Shown here: positions 3,629 through 21,154 of the stretch, in pieces
How positions within the stretch are numbered: the first letter of the stretch is position 1
How the letters are laid out: each line of letters opens with the position of its first letter
Source of the DNA: a virus
DNA: 21,645 nucleotides
Virus record (IMG/VR): IMGVR_UViG_3300020281_000135
Span: 1 to 21,645 of that record
Direction: 5' to 3' (one strand)
Notes under the pieces: generated by a model
Database searches by the model: none
What the model was told of the DNA's origin: nothing
Seen by the model: the letters and a program-made list of their open reading frames with translations, nothing else
Translations under genes and position numbers: made by a program

Positions 3629-4258
3629 ATGGCACAGGGCGATACTGACGTAAAAGTTTGTAACAAAGCGTTACTGCTTCTTGGTGTTGAAGCCATTACT
3701 AGTTTTTCTGACGGTACTCCAGCAGCAACAGCTTGCGATACCATTTACAAAGAAGTTAAGTTTTCCACATTGGGGATGTACCGTTGGTCATTCACCATTG
3801 CTAAACGTGAACTCTCAAGAGACACAGCAACCCCACAGAACGAATGGACGTACCAGTACATATTGCCAAACGATATGTTGATTGGTGTTCCTGAAGCTGT
3901 AAGGGTAACAAGCAACCCTGGTGGCTTGCTATATAAAAACTGGGAGATTGCACAAGCTACAGGCGGTTATTCAGTATTGATGACTGAAGCAACTGAAGTA
4001 CACATAGATTATCAGAAGGCTGTAAGTGAAGGCGGTATGCCTACCTATTTTATCCAACTTCTGGCTTATCAGATGGCTTGGCACCTGGCTGAGGTGCTTA
4101 CAGACCAAACAACTAAATCAGAGTATTGGCGTACTGTTGCACTAGGTACTCCATCTGAAGGACAAAGAGGAGGGTATTTCAGGCAAGCAGCATCTATAGA
4201 TAGTGGGGGGCAGACACCTTCTGTTGTTGGTGATTATCTGCTGACTGATATACGATGA
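3629..4258 (+). CDS. Tail tubular protein A (T7 gp11-like adaptor)
   Basis: The 209-residue product is close to T7 gp11 (196). T7 gp11 forms the ring that joins the portal to the tail nozzle and to which fibres attach. The N-terminal pattern is diagnostic: VKVCNKALLLLGVEAITSF (the N-x-A-L-x-x-L-G motif), then A-C-D-x-I-Y, then a M-Y-R-W-S-F-T-I-A-K-R helix and the QNEWTYQYILPNDML segment. The C-terminal part contains a Y-Q-M-A-W-H-L-A-E-V-L-T helix typical of the family, then a glycine-rich end. Start ATG 3629 has AAGGAGG 5 bases upstream. The ATGA at 4255-4258 joins stop and start of the next gene, so the two tail tube proteins are translationally coupled. Confidence 0.9.
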   Translation: MAQGDTDVKVCNKALLLLGVEAITSFSDGTPAATACDTIYKEVKFSTLGMYRWSFTIAKRELSRDTATPQNEWTYQYILPNDMLIGVPEAVRVTSNPGGLLYKNWEIAQATGGYSVLMTEATEVHIDYQKAVSEGGMPTYFIQLLAYQMAWHLAEVLTDQTTKSEYWRTVALGTPSEGQRGGYFRQAASIDSGGQTPSVVGDYLLTDIR

Positions 4259-6303
4259 GCCGTGTTCAGCAATACCAAGCGTCATTTAGTATAGGTGAGA
4301 TAGACCCTTTATTGAAAGGGCGTATTGACCTACAGCAATACTATACATCTGTCGAAACAGCTAAGAATGTTTTGTTTGAGCCACAAGGGGGTTTTAGCAG
4401 ACGACCTGGTTTAAAGTTTCTTCTAGACCTTACAAGTGATGGGGCAAACAACAGTCATCATCTAGTGCCTTTTGAGTTTTCATCAGAGACTAGTTTTATG
4501 ATTGTGATGTCTGCATTCAATTCGACATCAACCATTCGTATGCGGTTCTATAAGGACGGCACGTTACTTACGAACATCAATGGAAGCGGCAATGCTTATC
4601 TGGATTACAGCGTGGGTACTCTTTATAGCGTTAGTAATTTTGATTTAGCTAGGTTAAACTTTACTCAGTCAGCTGATACGTTAATTTGTGTTCATCCTAA
4701 CTTTGTGCCTTTCAAACTTGTTAGAGGTGCAACAGACACAACGTGGACAGCAACTAGTCTCGCATCTGAACTGACTGTTCCTAAACACGCATTCAGTCTT
4801 TCTACGTCCAGTCCATCTGGAACTATAACACCCAGCGGTGTAGATGGAACTGTTACTATTACTGCATCTGCAAGCATCTTCAGCAGCAGCAATGTAGACC
4901 AATTTCTTGAAATAGATAATGGTTTTGGCAGGGCCAGAATAACCAGGTTCAACTCTGCAACTGAGGTTGAGGCAATGGTAGAGATACCATTCTTTGATAC
5001 AGACGCCACAAGTAATTTTATTTTAGAAACAGGCTATGAGGATGCCTGGAGCAATACGAGAGGCTGGCCTTTCACCGCTACTTTCCATGAAGGTAGATTG
5101 TATTTTGGTGGCTCTGATAGTTTGCCTTCAACATTGTTCGGTTCAAAGGTTGCAGACTTTTTTAACTTTAAAGCAGCTGAAGGATTAGATGATGATGCTA
5201 TTAAAATCACGTTATCTACTGATAGCGTTAATACTATTACTGGCTTACGTTCTGGTAGAGATTTACAAATCTTCACCACAGGGGCTGAGTTTTTTATTCC
5301 ACAGGGTGATTTAGACCCAATCACACCAGCCAACATTGTTGCTAAGTCTAGTACGAAACGTGGAGCAAAACCTTTCATACGACCTCAGGCGGCTGAGGGT
5401 GGCACGTTGTTTATTCAGCGGTCAGGCAAAGCTGTTCGTGAACTGTTGTTTAGTGACGTAGAACTTTCTTATGTTGCCAACAACATATCTCTTCTCGCTT
5501 CTCATTTATTGATAGACCCAAAGAAACTGGCACTTAGGTCAGCAACTGATACTACTGAAGGCGATTTGTTCCTGGTAGTAAACGGAACCGATACAACTGG
5601 GTATCGTGCATCTAGCCTTACACATACAGGTGAGATAGCTGCATTTATGTTGAACAAAGGGCAGAACATTGTAGCACCATCACACTTTGTTACAGATGGT
5701 GACTTTGTTGATGTTGGCGTTGATATTGATGACATATATGTAATTGTAAAAAGAACTATAGGTGGCTCTGCTAAATACTACTTAGAAATATTTGATGATG
5801 ACTTTACGACAGATAGCGCAGTCCAACATTCGCCTAGCTTTGGTGCTACCACCTATAGCGGTCACTCCCATATTGATGGTAAGACAGCAAAAGTAATTAG
5901 GGATGACATTGTTGATGCGGATGTAACAGTTTCATCTGGCAACATAACAACTGCTGCTGTGCCTTTGAGTTATGTAGAAGCAGGGCTTGATTATACCGTT
6001 GAGGTAAAAACCAATCCAGTAGAGTTAAGATTACCTAGTGGCTCTGTTGCTAGTCAACAGAAACGAATTGTAGAGGTAACACCAAACTTATTTCTAACGC
6101 AGAACTTAACGATAAATGGCAGCACAACTCCCTTGCAACAAACAGGTGCAAGTGGCAGCGGTGGTGTTCCTAATTTTACAGGTAAGAAAAAAGTAAGTGG
6201 CCTTCTTGGGTACTCCAGGGATGCACAAATAACCATAAGCCAGAACCAGCCAGTCTTTATGACGGTTCTAAGTTTAGATTACAAAGTGAGTGTAGGACAA
6301 TGA
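4255..6303 (+). CDS. Tail tubular protein B (T7 gp12-like nozzle)
   Basis: The 682-residue product corresponds to T7 gp12 (794), the six-copy nozzle that closes the tail tip and is the conduit for DNA and ejection proteins. The N-terminus is the family signature: SFSIGEIDPLLKGRIDLQQY, then Y-x-x-x-V-E-T-A-K-N-V-L, then Q-G-G-F-S-R-R-P-G. The centre is beta-rich, with repeated T/S/D-rich strands and GWPFTATFHEGRLYFGGSDS near residues 268-287, a conserved beta-propeller segment of this family. The C-terminus contains the R-x-V-E-V-T-P...F-M-T-V-L-S-L-D-Y-K-V end typical of the group. Start and stop are both fused to neighbours through ATGA overlaps (4255-4258 and 6300-6303), consistent with coordinated translation of the tail block. 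Confidence 0.9.
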   Translation: MSRVQQYQASFSIGEIDPLLKGRIDLQQYYTSVETAKNVLFEPQGGFSRRPGLKFLLDLTSDGANNSHHLVPFEFSSETSFMIVMSAFNSTSTIRMRFYKDGTLLTNINGSGNAYLDYSVGTLYSVSNFDLARLNFTQSADTLICVHPNFVPFKLVRGATDTTWTATSLASELTVPKHAFSLSTSSPSGTITPSGVDGTVTITASASIFSSSNVDQFLEIDNGFGRARITRFNSATEVEAMVEIPFFDTDATSNFILETGYEDAWSNTRGWPFTATFHEGRLYFGGSDSLPSTLFGSKVADFFNFKAAEGLDDDAIKITLSTDSVNTITGLRSGRDLQIFTTGAEFFIPQGDLDPITPANIVAKSSTKRGAKPFIRPQAAEGGTLFIQRSGKAVRELLFSDVELSYVANNISLLASHLLIDPKKLALRSATDTTEGDLFLVVNGTDTTGYRASSLTHTGEIAAFMLNKGQNIVAPSHFVTDGDFVDVGVDIDDIYVIVKRTIGGSAKYYLEIFDDDFTTDSAVQHSPSFGATTYSGHSHIDGKTAKVIRDDIVDADVTVSSGNITTAAVPLSYVEAGLDYTVEVKTNPVELRLPSGSVASQQKRIVEVTPNLFLTQNLTINGSTTPLQQTGASGSGGVPNFTGKKKVSGLLGYSRDAQITISQNQPVFMTVLSLDYKVSVGQ

Positions 6304-6881
6304 GCGGCCCAACTTTAGCAGTAATGGCAATCGCATCAGCTGTCGTTGGCGGCTATGCACAAATACAAGCAGCCAAGGCGCAACGTACTATGTACAACCG
6401 TCAGGCTCAAATTACAGAAAGACAATCAAAATTAGATGGCCTTGCTTATAAACAGCAAGGTGTAAATGCTTTGAAGAAAATGAACAGGGTATTGGCAGCT
6501 AATACAGCAAGGGCAGCAGCAGGCAATCTAGACCCTTTCTCCTCAGGAGATAGCCACGATGTTATTGCAACCTACAACCTTAGACAAGGTGTAAATGATT
6601 TTACCATAGCAAGAGATAATCAAACTATCGCTGAGAAGATGGGTAAGTTTCAAGCAGACAACTATCGTTATGCAGGCCAGGTAGCTGTTTCAAATGCCAA
6701 GACCATGGCGGCAGTTAACATTGGTATGTCCTTTGTTACAGCTGGTCAGGTATATGGCACCGAAGGTTTATCAGGAATGTTTCAGACGGCAAGTGCCGCT
6801 CCAACTGTAGTAAGCCCAACAACATCATCAATGGCGGTTCCAGGGGTTGGAGGCTATTCGCCAACAACAATGTTTGGGTAG
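6300..6881 (+). CDS. Internal virion protein (T7 gp14-like ejection protein)
   Basis: The 193-residue product nearly equals T7 gp14 (196). It lies directly after the nozzle gene, where the first ejection protein is found in T7-like phages. Residues 5-22 (LAVMAIASAVVGGYAQIQ) form a hydrophobic segment, followed by the conserved pattern A-x-x-Q-R-x-x-Y-N-R-Q-A-Q. A central helix has R-A-A-A-G-N-L-D-P-F-S-S-G-D, and the C-terminus is Ser/Thr/Pro/Gly-rich. In T7 this protein leaves the capsid first and makes the pore in the outer membrane. The ATGA overlap with the upstream gene couples translation. No cysteine is present. The family call is strong by position, length and pattern, though T7-like gp14 proteins diverge quickly. 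Confidence 0.82.
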   Translation: MSGPTLAVMAIASAVVGGYAQIQAAKAQRTMYNRQAQITERQSKLDGLAYKQQGVNALKKMNRVLAANTARAAAGNLDPFSSGDSHDVIATYNLRQGVNDFTIARDNQTIAEKMGKFQADNYRYAGQVAVSNAKTMAAVNIGMSFVTAGQVYGTEGLSGMFQTASAAPTVVSPTTSSMAVPGVGGYSPTTMFG

Positions 6882-6887
6882 ATAACT

Positions 6888-8741
6888 ATGGCAGAGCAAC
6901 TTAGATATGAACAGCAACTACAACGGCTAAATATGCGGAATGTAGATTTTGCTGCTGAAAAAGAAATAGCCAGAGGCTACCAGCAGATATCTAACAAGCT
7001 AGACCAAATGTCTAATTTCTTTATGCGTCAAGCTGAAGGGATGGCAAAGATTGAGGGTGCCGAATACGGTGCAGAAAATGCGCCTACCAAACAACAAATT
7101 GAAGATGCAAAGTCTACAGGCGTTGAACTAGAACTGCCTGGAGATAAATTTACTGTATATGGCAGGGCTGCACAGAATGCCGCTCTTACATCTGTGTATG
7201 ATGATATAACCCTAGCAGCTAAGACACAAATACTTACCGACCTTACAGATTACGAGAAAAGAGAGTTAGACCCATCAGGGCTGCAAGAAAAGTTTAATAC
7301 CATCATTGATGGCTATGCAGCTACCTTTGATGAAACCTCACCAGCTTTAGCTAAAAAGTTTCGTGCTGAGTTAGGTCTGTACGCTTATGGTAAAGTAAGC
7401 ACAGAAAGCAGCGCATTTATTAAAAGGGAAAAAGACCAGCGTATTGCTACATATGCCACAGCAGCTGAACTATTCCTAGACAACGGTTTGCGTACATTGA
7501 TGCTTGGTGCCGTTAATCAAACAAATATTGTAGATACAGGAGAGGTAGAAGAAACAGCAACTTCTGCTGAAACTGTATCTGAATTAATTGTTACAGAAAA
7601 AAAGAAGATGCTGACTGGTGCTATTAGTGTAGGTATGTCATCCTCCCAGGTTAAAATTCTTGCTGATGCATTTGATGCTAGGGTTCTACAGATACAATCC
7701 AATCTTGTTCTAGAGGAGATGTATGCACAGGGGTCAGCTAACAGAGGTACTTTCTATGGCAGGGTCAAGCTGGCTATTGAGAAGGGTGCTAACAGTCCAC
7801 AAGCAAAAGAACTACCGCCTAGCGTACAGGCAGCTATCTTTTCTACAAAGGCAGATGACAGGCAGACTATCCTAAACAACTTGCGTACAGGATGGAATGC
7901 AATCATGGACGACCAAACAAAACAAATTTCTACAACGAACACCATCAGAGAAAATGATGTTGGTATAGCAACCAGGAACTTTGGCCTTGCTGTAACTGAC
8001 TACGCTAAAGCAGGCAATGAGCAACAGCTTAGTGGTGCCTTGAATAGAATGGACATTAACCTAGAGTTCATAAGAGTAAATGACCCTGGCAACTATGAAG
8101 AATACAAAAGAACGTATGACTTAATTACTGGGCCTAACAGCACCAAAGGTTTTGCTCTGCGTAATGACATCAACACAGAGGTTTTGTTTGAGACTGATAT
8201 GCAGAGGGTAAACCCTTTGTACACAATGAATGATGTAAACAAAGCACTAAACGACAAGAAGATTACTTTTGATTATTACAAGAAGGTGCTTGCTACTTAC
8301 AACACCATTTACGATGCAGAATTTTCTGATGCAATCAAACGGATGAAAGAAGAACTAGGCGTACCAGCTGATATGTACCTAGATAAGACATGGCTTAAAA
8401 GCCAAGAGGCAAACATCATTTCGTCAGCTATAGCACAGATGCGAGAGGCAAGAAGAAATGATACTACAGGCACGTTTGATGCAGACAAGTGGGTAACAGA
8501 CAACCTTCCTAATCTTATTAGAACACAGATACCAGGCAGTGGCGGTGACGAAACGGCTACAGTTACAGAAGCTAGTAGGTATACCAGACGTAGCGTTGTG
8601 AAGATGATACAGACGCTTGCAAGTGATGGCACTAACCCAGAAAGGCTAGAATACTTTGAAGACTTGCTTGAAAGAGTAGACCAGCTTATGGCAACGCCTG
8701 GCTTTGACCAAACTAAATTACCAGGGTGGGTTCAGCAATGA
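6888..8741 (+). CDS. Internal virion protein (T7 gp15-like ejection protein)
   Basis: This 617-residue protein is the second ejection protein by order (T7 gp15 has 747). It is almost entirely alpha-helical in appearance, rich in Ala, Gln, Asp, Lys and Thr, with no cysteine, no signal peptide and no clear membrane segment. Features expected of the family are the N-terminal QLRYEQQLQRLNMRNVDFAA amphipathic region, and a long central segment with many T-N-T-I and A-K-A-G helices. In T7, gp15 assembles with gp16 into a periplasmic tunnel through which the genome crosses the envelope. No enzymatic motif was recognised. The start ATG at 6888 has only a weak GGTAG upstream, so translation probably depends on the gene just before it, which ends 6 bases upstream. 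It ends in an ATGA overlap with the next gene. Confidence 0.75.
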   Translation: MAEQLRYEQQLQRLNMRNVDFAAEKEIARGYQQISNKLDQMSNFFMRQAEGMAKIEGAEYGAENAPTKQQIEDAKSTGVELELPGDKFTVYGRAAQNAALTSVYDDITLAAKTQILTDLTDYEKRELDPSGLQEKFNTIIDGYAATFDETSPALAKKFRAELGLYAYGKVSTESSAFIKREKDQRIATYATAAELFLDNGLRTLMLGAVNQTNIVDTGEVEETATSAETVSELIVTEKKKMLTGAISVGMSSSQVKILADAFDARVLQIQSNLVLEEMYAQGSANRGTFYGRVKLAIEKGANSPQAKELPPSVQAAIFSTKADDRQTILNNLRTGWNAIMDDQTKQISTTNTIRENDVGIATRNFGLAVTDYAKAGNEQQLSGALNRMDINLEFIRVNDPGNYEEYKRTYDLITGPNSTKGFALRNDINTEVLFETDMQRVNPLYTMNDVNKALNDKKITFDYYKKVLATYNTIYDAEFSDAIKRMKEELGVPADMYLDKTWLKSQEANIISSAIAQMREARRNDTTGTFDADKWVTDNLPNLIRTQIPGSGGDETATVTEASRYTRRSVVKMIQTLASDGTNPERLEYFEDLLERVDQLMATPGFDQTKLPGWVQQ

Positions 8742-11341
8742 GTGATATTTTTACAAAAACATTCAACGAACTTTACTTTGGCAGCAACTCTACCAAGGGT
8801 GGGCATGGTGAATATTCTATTTACCGTGACAAGAATACTGGTGAGGTAAAATATTATGATGGTGAACTCCCCCTCAAGCGTGGTCTTCCTGATAACATTG
8901 AGGAAGGTACGCCTGAGGCGTTTGCTTACAAACAGCAACAGATAGATGTCTGGGGTTTGCCTGGTGAGATTATTTCTGATGACAACATTGCAGCAATAAA
9001 GAAACAGCGACAAGAGACAGTCATCACTGACCCTGATTGGGCCAGGGCATCTAAGATGCTCTATAGCTACATGGAGCCAGACGGTAAAGACTTTACCTCA
9101 GACAAAGAAGCATCTGAATGGGGTATTGATTTTATGTCCTCTTTTGAAAACAACTTTGGTCACATGGTTGTTGATATTGCTAGGATGGAGAATGCACCGC
9201 CACAAATGTGGCACGCTATGTACTATCTAATGGAGACAGCTGACCGTGACGGTATGCTGTTTAAAAACTTTAAGAAAGGTTTGTATTACACACTTACAGA
9301 CGTAACAAATCTGGTTGGCCTTGCAACTATGGGCATTGGTCTTATCGGCAAATCAGCTGGTAAGCAGCTTACTAAGGTAGGTTTTAAAGAAGCACTTAAA
9401 CGTATCGTAATGTCTAAGCCTGATGCATCTGATTTGTTCATGATGGCTGAGGGTGCAACATATGCTGGTGGCTTTAACTTTGGTCAACAAACTGTAAGAG
9501 AAGGCGCAGGCAAGCAAGACGGTATAAATGTAGGTGAACTAGCTACAGCAACAGGTGTTGGTACAGTAGCTGGCCCTGTACTCAATAGGGCTGGTCAAGG
9601 TGTTATGGAAGGCGGCAAGCGGTTATTCAATGCAGCTGGCGACCTGGTATCACCAGAGACAAAGGCAGCACAAAACGTAGGTGAGATTATTGATGACACT
9701 GTAGGTGTAGACCCTAATGCATTTACACCAGTTAGTGTTACAGACCCTAAGAGGGTTGGAACTACAGGACAATATGTTGGCGCACCTAAAGGATTAGATA
9801 CACCAGCCAAGCTAGGCGCAATGCGTAGGAATATGGTGAATATCGCTAAGGAAGGTGAACAAGGACGTTTCTGGTATGAGCGTTCTAGTCAGGCAATCCT
9901 TGATGCAGTTAATGGTGACAAGGAAGCGGCTGACAAGATTGCACAAGCTATTGCTATTACTAGCGGTGGTCAAACACCAGTCATGTCAAACTTTGAGTTT
10001 GCTATTCAGGCTTACAATATGTGGAAGCAAGGCAAAGAGATTGTAACAGGACGTTTCCCAACGGCTATGGGGCCAAGACTTCAAACAGTGTTTGATGGCG
10101 GTAGCTGGGAAGGACGCAAGACTAACACCTTCTACAACAACGTCATGGTAGGCATTGACCCTACTAGGTCACAGGGTGTGACTGTAGATATGCACATGAT
10201 GCGTGTGTTTGGTTTCGACAGCGACAACCCAACACCAGCACAGTATGAGTTTGTTGAGAACGAAGTAAACAGAGTAGCTAACAAACTAGGATGGACACCT
10301 TACCAAACTCAAGCGGCTATGTGGGTAGTACAGAAAGCCAACAAGGAAGGTAAGTCTGTTAAAGAAATGTCTTTTGACTACAAAGACGCACTAGAGAATA
10401 CACTAGGACAAATCTCCTGGGAGACTAAACCATCAGCATCTAGTGGTCACATGAAAGAAATATTTGATGCGCCATTAAATCAGCAAGCAGAATATCATTT
10501 CACAATGTCCAAAGCCTTAACAGGTGACGATGGTGTTGACCTTATAGCTAAAGAGTTTGGTCTACTATCACCAGGCAGCTTTGATGCACCTGGTGTATTT
10601 GAAGGTGTGCTAAGTCCAGGCACTCAAACCTATGCTCTTATGCCCAAGAAATACAAGGGCCAGCCAGGTGAGGTTGATGAGGCTACGCTAGAACTTGTGA
10701 AGATGTACTCTGTTGCTAGAGGCATTTTATTGAAACAAGATGGTGTTGGTTTCCACCGTCCTTTCTATAAGAAAGGTACAGCAAAGAAAGATATGAATGG
10801 CTTTGATGTAAATGTTGGCAGACCATTTACTGAAGCAGAGATTATCCAGCTAGATAAACTAATCCAAGAAAAAACAGGCATGGACTTCCTAAGTCCAGTG
10901 TCTACAGAAAATGGCGTAAGGCTTCTAAACTTTACAGATGGTGAAGAGGGTCAGATACCTAATGTAGATTATCAGCGCATGATATTAGAGGCACTTGATA
11001 TTTTTGAGATATCTGATATAAAAAGAGAAGATGGTATGCAAGTTAAGCAATTCAAGGCTCAACTTGGATATGTAGCAAATAATTGGAAGGAGGCACCAAA
11101 TGGCGAAATATACCTTAACGATAGCTTCCCAGGACGACCCGATTTACAAGCAAGGGTTCAAGCTGTCGTCTCCAAGTTTATCGACAATGTCCAAGCAGTC
11201 GATGACGAATTCACAGCCAAGTACGGCTGGAGCCAAGGCGACTATAACACCAAATACAGAGGACAACAGCCTGGAAGTGAAAGTAACACTGGAGGAGTAG
11301 ACACAACTACACCTCCTGTAAACAATGAGGGGGGTGAATAG
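8738..11341 (+). CDS. Large ejection protein with HhH-GPD (DNA glycosylase)-like domain
   Basis: Starting at ATG 8738 (an ATGA overlap with the previous stop) gives 867 residues; the in-frame GTG at 8726 is less likely. The gene lies between the gp15-like and the largest ejection genes. Residues about 183-205 are hydrophobic (TNLVGLATMGIGLIG) and may enter a membrane. Residues about 366-535 resemble the HhH-GPD fold. There is an early helix IAQAIAITSGGQTPVMSNFE, recalling the LSAQ-x-T-x-V-x-x-N helix of endonuclease III. Next comes GRKTNTFYNNV (Lys461), recalling GVGRKTANVVL, and 23 residues on VDMHMMRV (Asp484, His486), recalling VDTH-x-x-RV. Lys and Asp at these places are the catalytic pair of endonuclease III. 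No iron-sulfur cysteines are present. The C-terminus is Gly/Thr/Pro-rich. The role as a virion protein is inferred from position. The glycosylase resemblance is by eye, and activity is unknown. Confidence 0.7.
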   Translation: MSDIFTKTFNELYFGSNSTKGGHGEYSIYRDKNTGEVKYYDGELPLKRGLPDNIEEGTPEAFAYKQQQIDVWGLPGEIISDDNIAAIKKQRQETVITDPDWARASKMLYSYMEPDGKDFTSDKEASEWGIDFMSSFENNFGHMVVDIARMENAPPQMWHAMYYLMETADRDGMLFKNFKKGLYYTLTDVTNLVGLATMGIGLIGKSAGKQLTKVGFKEALKRIVMSKPDASDLFMMAEGATYAGGFNFGQQTVREGAGKQDGINVGELATATGVGTVAGPVLNRAGQGVMEGGKRLFNAAGDLVSPETKAAQNVGEIIDDTVGVDPNAFTPVSVTDPKRVGTTGQYVGAPKGLDTPAKLGAMRRNMVNIAKEGEQGRFWYERSSQAILDAVNGDKEAADKIAQAIAITSGGQTPVMSNFEFAIQAYNMWKQGKEIVTGRFPTAMGPRLQTVFDGGSWEGRKTNTFYNNVMVGIDPTRSQGVTVDMHMMRVFGFDSDNPTPAQYEFVENEVNRVANKLGWTPYQTQAAMWVVQKANKEGKSVKEMSFDYKDALENTLGQISWETKPSASSGHMKEIFDAPLNQQAEYHFTMSKALTGDDGVDLIAKEFGLLSPGSFDAPGVFEGVLSPGTQTYALMPKKYKGQPGEVDEATLELVKMYSVARGILLKQDGVGFHRPFYKKGTAKKDMNGFDVNVGRPFTEAEIIQLDKLIQEKTGMDFLSPVSTENGVRLLNFTDGEEGQIPNVDYQRMILEALDIFEISDIKREDGMQVKQFKAQLGYVANNWKEAPNGEIYLNDSFPGRPDLQARVQAVVSKFIDNVQAVDDEFTAKYGWSQGDYNTKYRGQQPGSESNTGGVDTTTPPVNNEGGE
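11100..11300 (+). CDS. Possible nested gene, 66 residues
   Basis: An ATG at 11100 is preceded by AAGGAGG (11087-11093) with 6-base spacing, as good a ribosome binding site as any in the window. The 66-residue frame lies wholly inside the 3' end of the 867-residue ejection gene, in a different + frame. The product begins MAKYTLTIASQDDPIYKQGF and ends TPNTEDNSLEVKVTLEE. No family was recognised. The host frame in this stretch uses GTC for valine several times, whereas neighbours mostly use GTT or GTA, which may reflect the double constraint. Against it, the nested frame uses TCG, ACG and CTG codons more than other genes, and the AAGGAGG may simply encode Lys-Glu. Confidence 0.3.
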   Translation: MAKYTLTIASQDDPIYKQGFKLSSPSLSTMSKQSMTNSQPSTAGAKATITPNTEDNSLEVKVTLEE

Positions 11342-14300
11342 TGTCTATACCTAAAGACGAAATTGACAAAACAAGCATTCTAACTGAGCCTGTTAACCCC
11401 ACAGAAACATCTAGTGTAGATGCGCCACCAGTCATTGATGGCACAGGCAAAGAAGCTGACCCTAACTTTATTAGCCCTGTACAAACAGATGAGAACCAGG
11501 AAATCCAGGTTGCTGGCCTTAGCGGTAAGTTTGGCAAGAAGGCAGGCAAGGTAATAACAGATGGCGTAGATGCCTGGACAGATTATTTTGGCGGTACAGA
11601 TGTAACTCAATCGCCTAATCAAAAAAAGAAAGTAACGGCAACTATCAAAGGTGACAGCCCTGTAGCTACTGTTGATACAGAAGGCACTGTTGTTATTCGT
11701 CCTATGTCTATGGAGGAACTAACAGCTGTCAAGCAATATATGGGCCGTGATGACATCGACTTTGATGTAGTCTTACCCAACTTAAAAAATATAGACAGCC
11801 AGCTATCTGGCGATACAGCTGACGTTCAGTTTAAGAAACTGATTGCAGCAATGTATGAGCATTACAAAAAGACAACAGGCCCAGATGGAAAGCCTTTGTT
11901 GCAAAAGGGTGAGCGTGGGTTTGCTCAGATTATTGAAGACGCAAACAAGATTGGCTCTGTAGATATTATGTTGCAGCTGCTAGAGCGAGAGCCTGGTAAG
12001 CGTTTGTTTAATGATGCCCAACTATTAGCTGCAAGACGTACAGTATTGTCTTTTGAGATTATGGCTCAGAAGCAACTAAAGAAATGGGAAAAGACAGGCA
12101 GCCAGGTTGATTTAGCTTCAGCATTACAAGCCTTAAATATCAGCGCATATGCACAGATACAGCTTACTGGCGCACAGGAGGACATTGCTAGGGCGCAAGT
12201 ATCAAATCGTATTATTGCATCACCAGGCAAGGCTCGTATTAACTCTCTTAAAACCTGGATGGATACAAACACTGTATCTGATTTTTCAGCAGCAATCACA
12301 GACAAGAATGTAGCAGAGTTTCTTGAAGCCAATGGCGGTGAAGAGGCTGTCATGTCTATGCTGTATGCATACAAGAACCTACCCAACGATGCATCTAGAA
12401 ACAAATTTCTACGCAATACATTCCTAGAGACAGCCAAGCTAACACCTAAAATGATTATGGAAATCTACCAGACGGCCCTACTGTCTTCTGGCGTAACCCA
12501 TGCATACAACGCAGCTGGCACAGCTGTTATGATGGAAATGCAAATGATAGAGCGTTTCTTGATGGGCGAGTTTGGTGAAGGTATGCAGATGCTAAAGGCC
12601 CATGCAACGTACTTTCCTCAAGCACTAATGGCTATGTCTCATGCACTAATTTACGAAAAGTCAAAAGTAGAAAATGTATCAAAGCTAGATGTAGACGGTA
12701 GGGGTATATCTCGTCATGCTTTTGGTTTGCGTAATAGGCTAATGAATGAAGGTGGCGGTAATATTGAAAGCGCAGCTTCTATGGCTATAGATGGCTTTGG
12801 TATTTCAATGAGGGCTTTAGGCTATAGACCAATGATAGCCATAGATGAATTTTTTAAGACTATGGGCAGGGGCATGGAATTGTCAACTATCGCTCATAGG
12901 GCTGGTTCTGATGCAAGAAAAGCTACAACTGATAAGCTAAAGGCAGAAGGCAAAGATGCTGAGTTTATTAAAACGGAAGCACAAAAATCATACAAGATAG
13001 CTTACACAAAGACTTTGAATAGCCAGGATGCGTTTGAGGAAGCATCTGAATTTGCACGAATGATTACGTTCCAGGATGATTTGCCTGGTACATTGGGTAA
13101 AGCAAATGGCTTCTTCAACAATCCGCTTATAAAGATATGGGTGCCATTCTACAGAACGCCTACACAAATTGTAAGGCGTGTGTCTGAACGCACACCTCTA
13201 GCATTAATGATGCCTTCAGTTATGAGGGATAAGATTATTAACGGCAATGCTAGAGAGCGTAAAGAAGCTATGGTTCGTATCAGTACAGGCATGATGCTGT
13301 TCGCTACTACTATGTATTATGCCTCTGGTGGTGGCAGTGATGATTTTGTAATTACAGGCTATGGGCCTCGTGACCCTGACATTCGTAGACGCTGGCTAGA
13401 AAACAACGAACCGTACAGTATTGGTCTTAGAAACCCTGAAACTAATAAGTGGGAATTTGTTAGCTATGCAAGGTATGACCCTGTAGCTGGCACTTTGGCT
13501 ATGGCGGCTGATGCTACTGACATCATCTACAACACAGACGATGACGACACACTACTAGATATTATGATTGGTGGCGGCACAGCTACCATGAAATATACAG
13601 CTACTGCTTTGCCTATGACACAGTTTATAGGTGAGATGGTAAATGTTGCTGGTGCTAGGTATGAAAGCCATGAGAGTAAGGTAGAGCGTATTACACAGCT
13701 ACTAGCCAAACAAGTCTTTATGGCTGGCGGCATTGTAAAAGAACACGTTATGTCTGGCGGTATTGGTGGTGTGCAGCTAAAAGGCAGCATTGAGCGGTCA
13801 GGTCTAGGCGAAGGCACACAGTTTGGTGACATGACCCTGGGCAGTGAGTTTGGCTCAAGCATCATTCCACAAGACCAATACAAAGATATTCCTTTTTGGG
13901 ATAGACCTACTGGCTTGTACCCTATTACCAGAGCATACTATGAGATGCTGAACAGCATTTGTTCTAAAACATCTGGTTGTTCCTCTGAACTACCTCCTAA
14001 GGTAAATCGTTGGAATGAGCCTATGCCTCAGACAAGAGGTACTGGCTGGGAGTTTATGCAGCCTTACAGGGTAGTGAACAAGCCTGGTGCTGACATCATT
14101 AACAAAGAACTAGAAGATTTGAACTACGGCTTTCCAAGGCTATCCATTACTATGGGTGAACCTATGATTAAGCTAAATGCAGAGCAATATGCTAGGTATG
14201 TAGAACTATACAATGACCCATCTAAATCACCTTTTGCTAAGGAATATTTTAAGCTGGGTGTCTACACTGGTGGTGAAAGCCTGATGCCACCGTCAGCTAT

Positions 14301-14631
14301 TGAGGCTATGACTGACATCCTAGAAAACAGGTCTACCAATCAATACGATGATATGCAGATGCTGAACAACGTAACCCAGGGTTATGTGTTGGTGCCATCT
14401 TCCAGGAAACACAAGATAGATATTCTGAACGGTGTAGACAGTGAATACAAGTCATACGCCAAGGCACTAATGCTATTTGAGTATCCTGAACTTCAAGCCC
14501 TTGTGCAGCAGCGTGACAGCTTCAAAGAAGAGATGGGAAGGAACCCACGACTATTAGTTAAACCTACTGGTTCGGAAATAGTTAACGCACAAGAAGGGAA
14601 CATAAAGAGGTTATTTGGGGTAACAGAATGA
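11341..14631 (+). CDS. Large internal virion protein (T7 gp16 position)
   Basis: The 1096-residue product starts at GTG 11341, sharing one base with the preceding TAG, with a purine-rich GAGGGGGG just upstream. It is the last and largest ejection protein (T7 gp16 has 1318). The N-terminal 90 residues are acidic and low-complexity. The long middle is helical and Met-rich. Residues about 590-720 carry a conserved-looking block with FNNPLIKIWVPFYRTPTQIV, then RISTGMMLFATTMYYASGG (a likely membrane segment, 646-664), then ITGYGPRDPDIRRRWLENN and YARYDPVAGTLAMAADATD, a combination seen in large virion proteins of many marine podoviruses. No lytic transglycosylase motif was seen. The only cysteines are Cys874 and Cys880. 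It probably forms the inner-membrane part of the DNA channel. No enzymatic function is claimed. Confidence 0.75.
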   Translation: MSIPKDEIDKTSILTEPVNPTETSSVDAPPVIDGTGKEADPNFISPVQTDENQEIQVAGLSGKFGKKAGKVITDGVDAWTDYFGGTDVTQSPNQKKKVTATIKGDSPVATVDTEGTVVIRPMSMEELTAVKQYMGRDDIDFDVVLPNLKNIDSQLSGDTADVQFKKLIAAMYEHYKKTTGPDGKPLLQKGERGFAQIIEDANKIGSVDIMLQLLEREPGKRLFNDAQLLAARRTVLSFEIMAQKQLKKWEKTGSQVDLASALQALNISAYAQIQLTGAQEDIARAQVSNRIIASPGKARINSLKTWMDTNTVSDFSAAITDKNVAEFLEANGGEEAVMSMLYAYKNLPNDASRNKFLRNTFLETAKLTPKMIMEIYQTALLSSGVTHAYNAAGTAVMMEMQMIERFLMGEFGEGMQMLKAHATYFPQALMAMSHALIYEKSKVENVSKLDVDGRGISRHAFGLRNRLMNEGGGNIESAASMAIDGFGISMRALGYRPMIAIDEFFKTMGRGMELSTIAHRAGSDARKATTDKLKAEGKDAEFIKTEAQKSYKIAYTKTLNSQDAFEEASEFARMITFQDDLPGTLGKANGFFNNPLIKIWVPFYRTPTQIVRRVSERTPLALMMPSVMRDKIINGNARERKEAMVRISTGMMLFATTMYYASGGGSDDFVITGYGPRDPDIRRRWLENNEPYSIGLRNPETNKWEFVSYARYDPVAGTLAMAADATDIIYNTDDDDTLLDIMIGGGTATMKYTATALPMTQFIGEMVNVAGARYESHESKVERITQLLAKQVFMAGGIVKEHVMSGGIGGVQLKGSIERSGLGEGTQFGDMTLGSEFGSSIIPQDQYKDIPFWDRPTGLYPITRAYYEMLNSICSKTSGCSSELPPKVNRWNEPMPQTRGTGWEFMQPYRVVNKPGADIINKELEDLNYGFPRLSITMGEPMIKLNAEQYARYVELYNDPSKSPFAKEYFKLGVYTGGESLMPPSAIEAMTDILENRSTNQYDDMQMLNNVTQGYVLVPSSRKHKIDILNGVDSEYKSYAKALMLFEYPELQALVQQRDSFKEEMGRNPRLLVKPTGSEIVNAQEGNIKRLFGVTE

Positions 14632-14688: not shown

Positions 14689-16458
14689 ATGGCTACGTTT
14701 GACGTAAATACACAAGTAAGGAAAGTTTCGACCACTGCGACTGGGCAAACTGAATTTGACTTTTCTTTTCAAGTAAACTCAATCAATGATATTGACGTTT
14801 ATGTTGATAGCGTATTGCAAACTAGTGGCTTTTCTATTGTAAATAGTAGCAATAACCCTGGGTTAAATACAGACGGAACAGGGCGAGTTAAGTTTACTAC
14901 AGCCCCAGCAAATGGCACGACTGTAGCCATCAAGTCGGATGTTCCCCTGGGCAGAACCAGTGTATACACAGCTGGCGGTAATATTACAGCAGCCTCACTA
15001 GAAACAGATTTTGACACCATTGCCATGAAGATTGGTGATGCAGACGAAACACTTAACAGGTCACTAAAAGCACCTGTTGGTGACCCTGACGATATTGATA
15101 TGACGATGCCAGTAAAGGCATCCAGGCTTGGGAAGGTGCTTGGTTTCAATGCAACAACTGGTAATCCAGAAGCTGGGCCTACCATTGCTGACGTTCAAAC
15201 CCTGGCAGCTATTACAGCTGACATAGGAACCCTGGCAGACATAGAAGATGGCACAGATGCTACTGATGCAATACAAACTGTTGCAGCTAATTCAGCTAAC
15301 GTCACAACAGTAGCAGGCATCAACACAACACACCTTGCTAATGTATCTGGTGTAGCAACAGAAGTTGGAAGGCTTGGCACAGCTGACGCTGTATCAGATA
15401 TGAACACACTTGGCACTAGTGCCATTGTAACAGACATGGATACCCTGGCTAACATTTCGGCAGACATCACTACGCTTGCCCACATTGAGGATGGCACAAC
15501 AGCTACCAATGCTATTCAGACGGTTGCCACAAATATAAGTTCTGTCCAAAGCGCACAAGCAAACGCAACTGCGGCTGAAGCAGCAAGGGATAGCGCAAAA
15601 GCTATCGCAGCTGCAATGGGTGCGGCTCTTGATAACTTTGATGACCGTTACCTTGGCACAATGGCTGACACTGTTGGCAATACTTTAAGTGTAAATAAAG
15701 TAACTACACTAACAAATGGCTCTGCTGAAATTACGGTTGCTGATAATACTGGCATTGTTGTGGGAATGAAGGCTACATTAAGTAACTATATTCCAGATGG
15801 CACTAATGTTATTGGTATTAGTGGCACAACTATTAGCCTAGACAATGCGGCACTACAGGCTGGTAGTGGGTTAACTGTTGTGTTTAGCGCACATGGTGTA
15901 ATTCAAGCGTTTAACACAAGCACTGACGGCCCATCTACTGACAATGACGGCAATGCCTTAGTTACTGGTGCGCTATACTTTAACACTACAGACAACGAAA
16001 TGCGTGTCTATGACGGAGCAAACTGGATAGCTGCATCAGCGGCTGGCTCTGCTTCTATGAATATCTTTGAATACACAGTATCAGGTTCGCCCACCGCCAC
16101 ATTTTCTGGAACAGATGATAACGGAGCAACACTATCCTATACTCAACAGAACATCCAGGTTGTTAAAGATGGTGTTATTCTTCATGCAGATGACTTTACT
16201 GCAAACAACGGAACGTCAATTACTCTAATTGATAGTGGCGGTAGTAACTTAAACGCAGCTGTAGGTTCTGAAATTGTAATCTATGCTTTTAAATCATTCA
16301 CGGTTGCTGACACAGTTTCTAAATCTTCAGGTGGCACATTTAGTTCTAACGTCACTGTGACAGGCACATTGAACGCAACCACAGATGTTCAAGTAAATGG
16401 AGCGTCTGTAGCAACAATGGGCAAATCAATCGCTATGGCAATCGTATTCGGAGGATAA
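14689..16458 (+). CDS. Tail fibre protein with T7 gp17-like N-terminal domain
   Basis: The 589-residue product begins with the T7 tail-fibre attachment domain. Residues 1-150 contain TTATGQTEFDFSFQVNSIND, I-D-V-Y-V-D, a K-F-T-T-A-P-A-N-G-T-T-V-A-I strand, the P-L-G-R-T-S segment, and L-E-T-D-F-D-T-I-A-M-K-I...R-S-L-K-A-P. T7 gp17 uses this part to bind the tail tube. Residues about 175-290 hold A-D-I-x-T-L-A-x-I-E-D-G repeats, likely a trimeric fibrous shaft. A coiled stretch with AEAARDSAKAIAAAMG follows, then beta-rich segments including ALYFNTTDNEMRVYDGANW, a motif common in phage fibres. The end is MGKSIAMAIVFGG. It should sense the host surface, probably together with the next three small proteins. 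It has its own promoter-like element. Confidence 0.88.
   Translation: MATFDVNTQVRKVSTTATGQTEFDFSFQVNSINDIDVYVDSVLQTSGFSIVNSSNNPGLNTDGTGRVKFTTAPANGTTVAIKSDVPLGRTSVYTAGGNITAASLETDFDTIAMKIGDADETLNRSLKAPVGDPDDIDMTMPVKASRLGKVLGFNATTGNPEAGPTIADVQTLAAITADIGTLADIEDGTDATDAIQTVAANSANVTTVAGINTTHLANVSGVATEVGRLGTADAVSDMNTLGTSAIVTDMDTLANISADITTLAHIEDGTTATNAIQTVATNISSVQSAQANATAAEAARDSAKAIAAAMGAALDNFDDRYLGTMADTVGNTLSVNKVTTLTNGSAEITVADNTGIVVGMKATLSNYIPDGTNVIGISGTTISLDNAALQAGSGLTVVFSAHGVIQAFNTSTDGPSTDNDGNALVTGALYFNTTDNEMRVYDGANWIAASAAGSASMNIFEYTVSGSPTATFSGTDDNGATLSYTQQNIQVVKDGVILHADDFTANNGTSITLIDSGGSNLNAAVGSEIVIYAFKSFTVADTVSKSSGGTFSSNVTVTGTLNATTDVQVNGASVATMGKSIAMAIVFGG
15217..15546 (+). repeat. Two related 87-base shaft repeats in the tail fibre gene
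   Basis: Bases 15217-15303 and 15460-15546 encode two 29-residue units, A-D-I-G-T-L-A-D-I-E-D-G... and A-D-I-T-T-L-A-H-I-E-D-G..., identical at 21 of 29 residues and offset by 81 residues. The DNA differs at many third positions, so the copies are old or held by selection on protein. The pattern of I/V/A every few residues fits a trimeric beta-helical or coiled shaft. The area between holds further T-V-A-G-I and N-V-S-G-V units of the same kind. Confidence 0.7.
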
Positions 16459-19450: not shown

Positions 19451-19686
19451 TAGAGGCGGTATTTGTTTTATTGTTATGGACAGCTGGCGGTGATGAACCG
19501 CTAGAGTATACGCCATATGAAAAGTTATCTGAATGCTTGTCTACTAAGCGCAAGATAAAACAAAACACTAACGGTGGTGTGAACTTTGATAACCAGTGGC
19601 AGTGTAAAGAACTCAAGGTGCAGATGGAGCAAAGCAGTGATGGCACCTGGCATATAATTAAACTGATGGAGGAGGTATCAAAATGA
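19447..19686 (+). CDS. Small exported or membrane protein, unknown
   Basis: The gene is joined to the previous one by an ATGA overlap (19447-19450). The 79-residue product starts with a short hydrophobic segment (IEAVFVLLLWTAGG), possibly a signal peptide or anchor. It continues with YEKLSECLSTKRKIKQ and later QWQCKELKVQM, giving two cysteines (Cys30, Cys53) that could pair if the protein is periplasmic. The Y-x-x-L-x-E-C-L-x-x-K-R-x-I pattern resembles small proteins found in alphaproteobacterial phages near lysis genes, none of known function. No lipobox is present, so it is not an obvious outer-membrane spanin. Confidence 0.55.
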   Translation: MIEAVFVLLLWTAGGDEPLEYTPYEKLSECLSTKRKIKQNTNGGVNFDNQWQCKELKVQMEQSSDGTWHIIKLMEEVSK

Positions 19687-20075
19687 TTAACTTACTTGGA
19701 AATCTTGTTGGCCCAGTGACAGGGCTACTGGATAAATTTATTGAGGACAAAGACCAGAAGAATGCTTTGGCCCATGAGATTGCAACCATGTCACAACGCC
19801 ATGCTCAGGAAGCAATGCTTGCTCAGATTGAGGTATTGAAAGCTGACGCAAAAGGTAACTGGTTTCAGGCATCGTGGCGGCCCTTGATTGGCTGGATTTG
19901 TGGCTTGTCGCTAGGCATAAATTACATGGTATCGCCTATCGCTCATGGCTTTGGGATTACTATTCCCCAGGCTGATATGTCTGTAATGATGCCGTTGATG
20001 TTTGGGATGTTGGGGATTGGTGGAATGCGTAGTTTTGACAAGGCAAAGAAGACAGACACAAAGGTTATTAAATGA
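19683..20075 (+). CDS. Holin of the GTA 3TM type
   Basis: The 130-residue protein starts in an ATGA overlap, with GGAGG at 19669-19673. The N-terminal third is an amphipathic helix (VTGLLDKFIEDKDQKNALAH). Next come the family signature N-W-F-Q-A-S-W-R-P-L-I-G-W (59-71) and hydrophobic helices at about 67-90 and 100-116, ending basic (RSFDKAKKTDTKVIK). The Q-A-S-W-R-P-x-x-G-W motif marks the holin family first defined from gene transfer agents of Rhodobacter (GTA_holin_3TM), which is common in alphaproteobacterial phages. It should form the inner-membrane hole that lets the M15 endolysin downstream reach the cell wall. This supports an alphaproteobacterial host. Confidence 0.85.
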   Translation: MINLLGNLVGPVTGLLDKFIEDKDQKNALAHEIATMSQRHAQEAMLAQIEVLKADAKGNWFQASWRPLIGWICGLSLGINYMVSPIAHGFGITIPQADMSVMMPLMFGMLGIGGMRSFDKAKKTDTKVIK

Positions 20076-20698: not shown

Positions 20699-21154
20699 AT
20701 GGCTTTTAAATTATCTGACAGAAGTTTGGCAAGACTTGAAGGTGTAGAGGACAGTATGAGGGCTGTCACTGAACTTGCTATTGAATACACCAAGATAGAT
20801 TTTGGTGTAACCTGTGGACTGCGTACCATTGAAGAACAAAGAGAACTTGTCGAAGCTGGTGCATCACAAACAATGAACAGCAAACACATTCCAGGTTTGG
20901 CTGTCGATGTTGTGGCATACATTGGCCCCAGGGTTTCATGGGAAGTAAATCTTTATGATGATATCGCTGACGCATTCAAGATTGCTGCGATTGAACTTGG
21001 TACTGGAATACGCTGGGGTGCGGCATGGCATATCCCAGACATTCGTGAATGGAACGGTACAATGGAAGAGGCCATGAACTCATACGTTGATACTAGAAGG
21101 AAGGAAGGGAAGCGACCATTCATAGACGCTCCCCATTTTGAGTTGTCTTCTTGA
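20699..21154 (+). CDS. Endolysin, M15-family peptidase (VanY/T5-type)
   Basis: The 151-residue product has AGGAGG about 8 bases before ATG. It cleaves peptide cross-links of peptidoglycan at lysis (L-alanyl-D-glutamate or D-Ala peptidase activity). The zinc site of M15 is complete: S-K-H-x-x-G-x-A-x-D (His63, Asp70) and D-A-P-H-F-E-L (His146), with Asp143 in the D-x-P-H position as the catalytic residue. An upstream R-T-I-E-E-Q-R motif (42-48) and a W-G segment (R-W-G-A-A-W, 105-110) are also typical of the T5 endolysin type. No signal peptide is present, so release through a holin is expected, and two holin-like genes lie upstream. Its stop directly abuts a - strand gene. Confidence 0.92.
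   Translation: MAFKLSDRSLARLEGVEDSMRAVTELAIEYTKIDFGVTCGLRTIEEQRELVEAGASQTMNSKHIPGLAVDVVAYIGPRVSWEVNLYDDIADAFKIAAIELGTGIRWGAAWHIPDIREWNGTMEEAMNSYVDTRRKEGKRPFIDAPHFELSS

Follow-up and report, generated by a model that had tools for sequence, protein, structure and literature searches.

A predicted 8-oxoguanine-glycosylase-like domain within an ejection-type protein of a T7-like virus

The locus described here raises the question of whether a phage may carry a DNA glycosylase in its virion and deliver it to the host together with the genome and, if so, which base such an enzyme would remove and from whose DNA. The protein concerned, of 867 amino acids (aa), comes from a marine T7-like phage and is encoded in the IMG/VR virus record IMGVR_UViG_3300020281_000135, positions 1 to 21,645 of which form the whole stretch of DNA that was analysed (the window, hereafter). 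An original prediction, made from the sequence, had placed within this protein a domain like that of the HhH-GPD DNA glycosylases, and of endonuclease III in particular, and had supposed that such a virion-delivered activity would be new. We find the reading of a glycosylase-like domain within an ejection protein to be supported, with its subfamily corrected, and we consider it fairly probable that the domain is a bifunctional-type Lys/Asp HhH-GPD glycosylase with a purine pocket like that for 8-oxoguanine (8-oxoG), which is delivered by the virion and most likely repairs the entering genome; packaging, delivery, catalysis, substrate and benefit are what we infer.

Fold and nearest kin of the domain

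The open reading frame (8726-11341, plus strand) encodes 871 aa when started at the GTG at 8726; the ATG at 8738, which overlaps the stop codon of the upstream gene as ATGA, gives the 867-aa protein whose residue numbers are used throughout (the 871-aa numbering is +4, with K465 and D488 there). The three segments on which the prediction was founded lie where they had been placed, at residues 408-418 (TSGGQTPVMSN), 459-469 (GRKTNTFYNNV) and 483-490 (VDMHMMRV), and the Lys 461 and Asp 484 said to be retained as the catalytic pair are both present, and are kept in every homologue, down to about 20% identity. The interval proposed for the domain, 9833-10342 (residues 366-535), coincides with a match to Pfam DUF7178 (PF23802; residues 372-533, E 2e-10, 41.2 bits against a curated cut-off of 27) and with phrog_3842, both of which are catalogued as of unknown function. 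At the level of sequence, the observation of glycosylase-like motifs is confirmed as real and beyond chance.

An AlphaFold2 (AF2) model of the domain, built from 49 natural homologues (pLDDT 91.3, pTM 0.86), consists of ten helices and, together with searches of the PDB, gives the all-helical fold of the HhH-GPD superfamily that had been claimed, the structure here being predicted, not solved. The helix after the hairpin starts one residue before K461, which is thus its second residue, and D484 stands directly before the next helix, as in the HhH-GPD enzymes. The sole confident matches of a Foldseek search against the PDB are 8-oxoG glycosylases, with AGOG (1xqp) the best (probability 1.00, E 0.016), and of the 50 top-ranking PDB entries in VIA-align 47 are DNA glycosylases. 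In the latter comparison the OGG2 enzymes reach Z 11.7-11.1 over 163-173 residues (MjOgg 11.7 over 163 residues at 3.0 Å, TmOgg 11.5, SsOgg 11.2), and other scores are AGOG 9.9, EndoIII-3 9.0, NTHL1 8.1, MagIII 8.0, MutY 7.5 and OGG1 7.1. The same list holds DUF2419 structures (Z 9.1 and 8.5), as would suit an N-glycosidase with nucleotides or RNA as its substrate, such as the DUF2419/Qng1 enzymes of queuosine salvage, which have this fold; we think such an activity quite improbable, given that the OGG2 enzymes score higher and are further joined to the family by a profile homology that aligns the Lys, the Asp and the base helix.

That homology to OGG2 exists at the profile level only, the PF22175 model being unmatched in Pfam scans at E <= 1 (window) or E <= 10 (stand-alone relatives). 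Since a shallow profile of virion-type sequences alone (Neff 2.6) is too weak, a family-wide profile of 35 members was needed, and this was compared with four OGG2-like bacterial proteins found with PF22175. Led by the stand-alone protein S-CBP42 gp36, the HHalign comparison gives a score of 50.6 (E 3e-7, probability 93%) and, led by the window, 40.5 (E 1.8e-5, probability 78%), to be set against 19.6 for the best of 100 column shuffles and 16.3 for the reversed profile; in its columns the catalytic Lys falls on the OGG2 Lys and the Asp on the OGG2 Asp. The virion-type profile found no match among PDB sequences by hmmsearch, and the AGOG model of NCBIfam gave a marginal match (E 0.16) in one stand-alone member only.

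In alignment-led scans the virion-type domain occurs on at least 188 viral contigs and on 3 bacterial-genome contigs, and stand-alone DUF7178 proteins of about 200 aa are present in more than 100 sequenced phage records, the hosts of which include cyanobacteria, roseobacters, actinobacteria and others. Some of these stand-alone members were named 'glycosylase', 'N-glycosylase/DNA lyase' or 'DNA glycosylase' by their depositors, which is an independent opinion and not an assay result. Only 1 of 274 bacterial genomes of the same class, the seed genome itself, carries DUF7178, so the family is essentially viral; no paper naming it was found in the open-access literature, to which our statements on published work refer. 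Two further matches were rejected as chance, that in Synechococcus phage ACG-2014a, where the matched protein is without the family's residues, and those in Klebsiella plasmids (E 8). Among the database entries, gp111 of the Tunturiibacter phage Tunturi_3 (L195, 2647-3243), deposited as a 'portal protein', is really a stand-alone DUF7178 protein (Pfam E 1e-39), and a protein of about 2040 aa from Virus Rctr197k (L207, APU88970.1) has more than one DUF7178 match.

The predicted active site

Conservation was examined in 87 virion-type and 35 family-wide sequences. Residues W379, Y380, S409, N418, K461, F465, D484, Q525, A526 and W529 are invariant in all of the latter set, and K461, D484, F465 (K+4), Q525 and W529 (Q+4) are invariant in all of the former as well, while position 486 (D+2), a His in the window, holds Trp in 23 of the 35 sequences and His in the other 12. 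Purifying selection is indicated by dN/dS values of 0.02-0.11 among relatives with unsaturated dS, those with dS >2 being rough.

These positions can be read against characterised enzymes. AGOG holds the 8-oxoG base between F146 (K142+4) and W212 (D208+4) (PMC9638937), and a Phe/Trp pair of this kind is found as F465 and W529, by sequence spacing and not by coordinates. In an alignment led by Tunturi_3, as read from the printed columns, Q525 falls on the recognition Asp of OGG2 and W529 on its Trp; the equivalent residues are Q315/F319 in OGG1 and D194/W198 in OGG2 (PMC3397491). Contact with the nucleotide phosphate is made by a His in hOGG1 and MjaOGG2 and by a Trp in CacOGG1 (PMC3397491); on our own reading of the residue numbers, this residue occupies the D+2 position. 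The viral family is thus predicted to be one with an AGOG-like aromatic pair and an OGG1-like Gln.

Several points weigh against the assignment and its proposed substrate. The Foldseek E value is only 0.016, and a Z of 11.7 may by itself reflect a common helical arrangement, as helical models can reach such values; because single values of this kind are insufficient, our verdict on the fold rests on the uniform list of matches taken together with the profile and residue evidence. The canonical G-h-G hairpin (L-P-G-h-G) is missing, the domain having GGSWEGRKT in its place, and the HHalign comparisons with EndoIII, MutY and AlkA profiles are not significant (E 0.2-0.3 for EndoIII and MutY, window-led). 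The Gln with which AGOG reads N7-H is without an identified counterpart, which leaves specificity for 8-oxoG a guess, and neither activity nor virion proteomics was found for any family member. A sceptic might add that the motif alone is short and that the EndoIII profile does not match, and see in the motifs a chance likeness within an unrelated helical domain; to this notion, refuted on the present evidence by fold, profile and residues combined, we give next to no credence.

What has to be given up is the likeness to endonuclease III as such. Its motifs are there, and the profile comparison that had been proposed does succeed with OGG2-like proteins, but kinship to endonuclease III itself is weak and the real kin are the 8-oxoG glycosylases. 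Judged from sequence and model, the closest subfamilies are OGG2, AGOG and OGG1 and not endonuclease III, there being neither a canonical hairpin nor, in the domain sequence, the C-terminal 4Fe-4S cysteines that are a hallmark of EndoIII and MutY.

Delivery, cassette exchange and possible role

That the domain lies in an ejection protein is borne out by the gp16 position of the 867-aa protein in a T7-like module, between the gp15-like protein and the tail fibre, and by sequence homology. Residues 93-264 match residues 57-222 of internal virion protein D of Pseudomonas phage LUZ100 (blastp E 5e-24, 35.8% identity; tblastn likewise, E 2e-17), and a profile of the following 1096-aa protein (42 homologues) matches residues 786-1054 of the same LUZ100 protein, gp47 (E 3.8e-17). 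Since these matches fall at the two ends of the LUZ100 protein, the gp16-like protein is divided here between two products, the first of which bears the predicted glycosylase. We infer from the LUZ100 homology that the 867-aa protein is present in the virion, and it probably enters the host cell along with the phage genome.

The glycosylase would then sit in the first of two proteins that jointly replace T7 gp16; packaged in the virion and released together with the ejection proteins, it would come to lie where the entry channel opens into the cytoplasm. At that point it may flip an altered purine, most likely 8-oxoG or a related modified guanine, out of the DNA and hold it between F465 and W529 while Q525 reads its edge; K461, aided by D484, would attack C1' so as to free the base, whether or not the strand is also cut. 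For the phage the gain would most likely be that base-excision repair of the oxidised bases in its genome begins at entry, ahead of gene expression.

A domain of 300 aa, in which E562, Q630, Q667, H673, R695, E701 and G726 are near-invariant, comes after the glycosylase in almost every virion-type locus. It has no Pfam or PDB sequence match, and its best structural matches, to efflux-pump domains (Z 8.3) and a phage SAM lyase (Z 7.8), are at chance level and were set aside. The pair occurs either in gp16-like proteins of about 700-1000 aa or in giant proteins of 1600-3600 aa, such as the 2658-aa protein of locus L003 (2781-10757), which also has an LPD38 domain and whose glycosylase is 72% identical to that of the window; the window protein itself has no LPD domain match in a Pfam scan. 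In a tree of 73 domains the two protein contexts require 8 changes, at least 5 of them forced by well-supported branches, a few of the context labels being uncertain because contig ends truncate some of the proteins.

On seven contigs the corresponding ejection gene carries a different glycosylase (L225, 4001-4684; L223, 2107-2790; also L226-L230). L225, which shares its sample code with the nearest relative of the window, is mostly 65-77% identical to the window in the neighbouring genes and the N-terminal part and about 25% identical in the glycosylase domain, which by this comparison is a swapped cassette. The incoming domain, linked to the DUF7178 family by HHalign (E 6e-22), is without the 300-aa domain and keeps the K, F (K+4), D, H (D+2), Q, A and W. 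Since the replacement is only distantly homologous and yet brings the identical set of catalytic residues, we argue that the enzymatic function is under selection. As a separate matter, L017 (1-1170) and L223 (982-2973), the two ends of one contig, hold versions of the ejection gene with near-identical N-terminal parts and different glycosylase cassettes, and are probably strain variants joined in assembly and not tandem genes.

This exchange bears on whether the domain is an enzyme at all. The C-terminal part of T7 gp16 binds and ratchets DNA in the cytoplasm (PMC8954989) and HhH domains bind DNA backbones, so that a domain which has lost catalysis and only grips or ratchets the genome at entry can be imagined. 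A mere binder, however, need not keep K461, D484 and the pocket residues, which are invariant throughout both sequence sets, stand-alone proteins included, and in the 25%-identical cassette, and we regard the loss of catalysis as unlikely.

The same cassettes leave more room for doubt about the target. An injected enzyme of this kind could instead have host DNA as its target, or a modified base introduced by the host or a rival phage, in attack, counter-defence or exclusion; repeated moves of the cassette between protein types and its replacement at 25% identity are what an arms race predicts, the module is also found in giant polyvalent-type proteins (L003, with LPD38, and the prophage L095/L096) of a class linked with the early struggle against the host (PMC5512222), and bacterial glycosylases are used against phages (PMC11078745). 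The pocket, on the other hand, resembles those of enzymes for 8-oxoG, a common lesion, and not for a bulky modification, and no link to modification genes is seen in the window; such a target is possible, if doubtful. Tentatively, too, one may picture a class of phages with interchangeable injected cassettes that bring base excision into the cell ahead of phage gene expression, swapped because the target base differs by host or rival and directed in counter-defence or attack at modified guanine, as a mirror of the bacterial defence glycosylases. Repair of the entering genome is the role that we prefer.

Some phages may thus deliver a base-excision enzyme with their genome, in the form of a domain whose relatives typically remove oxidised guanine. 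If active, it would be the first case, within the literature searched, of such an enzyme being carried into the cell by a phage virion, and a new question of genome entry would follow, namely whether marine phages repair, during entry, DNA that light or oxidants have damaged, or strike at a base of the host or a rival. DUF7178, of unknown function, gains a testable activity with named residues.

Gene order and comparison with known systems

Open reading frames and phrog matches reveal a series of genes in the T7 order across the 21.6-kb record, running from a portal fragment through the scaffold, major head protein, tail tubular proteins A and B, gp14-like, 617-aa, 867-aa and 1096-aa proteins to the tail fibre and lysis genes (Table 1). 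The last include a holin-like gene (19683-20072) and an endolysin (20699-21151; phrog_465, E 3e-50).

Table 1. Positions in the window of the ejection module, of the predicted glycosylase domain and of its putative active-site residues
Feature	Positions	Strand	Basis
Tail tubular proteins A and B	3629..6300	+	phrog_394, phrog_376
Internal virion protein, gp14-like	6300..6878	+	phrog_418, E 7e-7
617-aa protein at the gp15 (internal virion protein C) position	6888..8738	+	Gene order; adjoins the domain gene in relatives too
867-aa ejection-type protein	8738..11338	+	Open reading frame, ATGA overlap, T7-like order, homology to LUZ100 internal virion protein D
N-terminal part, residues 93-264	9014..9529	+	Homologous to LUZ100 internal virion protein D, residues 57-222
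Predicted HhH-GPD DNA-glycosylase domain (DUF7178/phrog_3842), residues 340-537	9755..10348	+	Pfam, AF2, PDB fold matches, HHalign
K461, predicted Schiff-base lysine	10118..10120	+	87/87, 35/35; aligned to OGG2 catalytic Lys
F465 (K+4), predicted base-stacking aromatic, cf. AGOG F146	10130..10132	+	87/87, 35/35
D484 (predicted catalytic Asp) and H486 (D+2)	10187..10195	+	D 35/35; W 23, H 12
Q525-A526-x-x-W529, predicted base-recognition helix	10310..10324	+	35/35 each; Tunturi_3-led HHalign
C-terminal alpha/beta domain, residues 538-841	10349..11260	+	AF2 pLDDT 92.7
1096-aa protein, counterpart of the C-terminal part of LUZ100 internal virion protein D	11341..14628	+	Profile match
Tail fibre	14689..16455	+	phrog_38058, phrog_1640

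The superfamily is well known, and the domain itself belongs to a known, uncharacterised family whose stand-alone members are partly annotated as glycosylases already; the virion-borne form of DUF7178 appears to be undescribed. The known enzymatic activity of T7 gp16 lies in a transglycosylase domain (PMC8954989), and the word 'glycosylase' by itself is absent from that review of ejection proteins, as it is from a survey of polyvalent proteins (PMC5512222).

In comparison with known systems, the window's domain is closest in family to the stand-alone DUF7178/phrog_3842 proteins (S-CBP42 gp36, prophiGD54-2 gp151, Shagrat gp113), with which it has the full domain and the catalytic and pocket residues in common; these are free proteins of about 200 aa, some encoded near the genome end (CRP-1 gp03), whereas in the window the domain is built into an ejection-type protein and is followed there by a second conserved one. 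It resembles the OGG2 enzymes (MjOgg, TmOgg, SsOgg; PF22175) in fold and in the aligned catalytic half, and differs from them in having Gln for Asp on the recognition helix, in lacking a G-h-G hairpin and in being viral, not cellular. With AGOG it has in common a Phe at K+4, a Trp four residues past the recognition residue (F146/W212) and a non-canonical hairpin, but the counterpart of the AGOG Q24 is not located and K+7, a Lys in AGOG, is mostly Asn in the family. Phage polyvalent proteins (PMC5512222) offer a further parallel, relatives such as L003 carrying the same module in giant proteins. The gp16-like protein corresponds to T7 gp16 and LUZ100 internal virion protein D in gene position and by homology at both ends of LUZ100 gp47, and departs from them in that it is split into two proteins and has gained a predicted glycosylase and a second domain.
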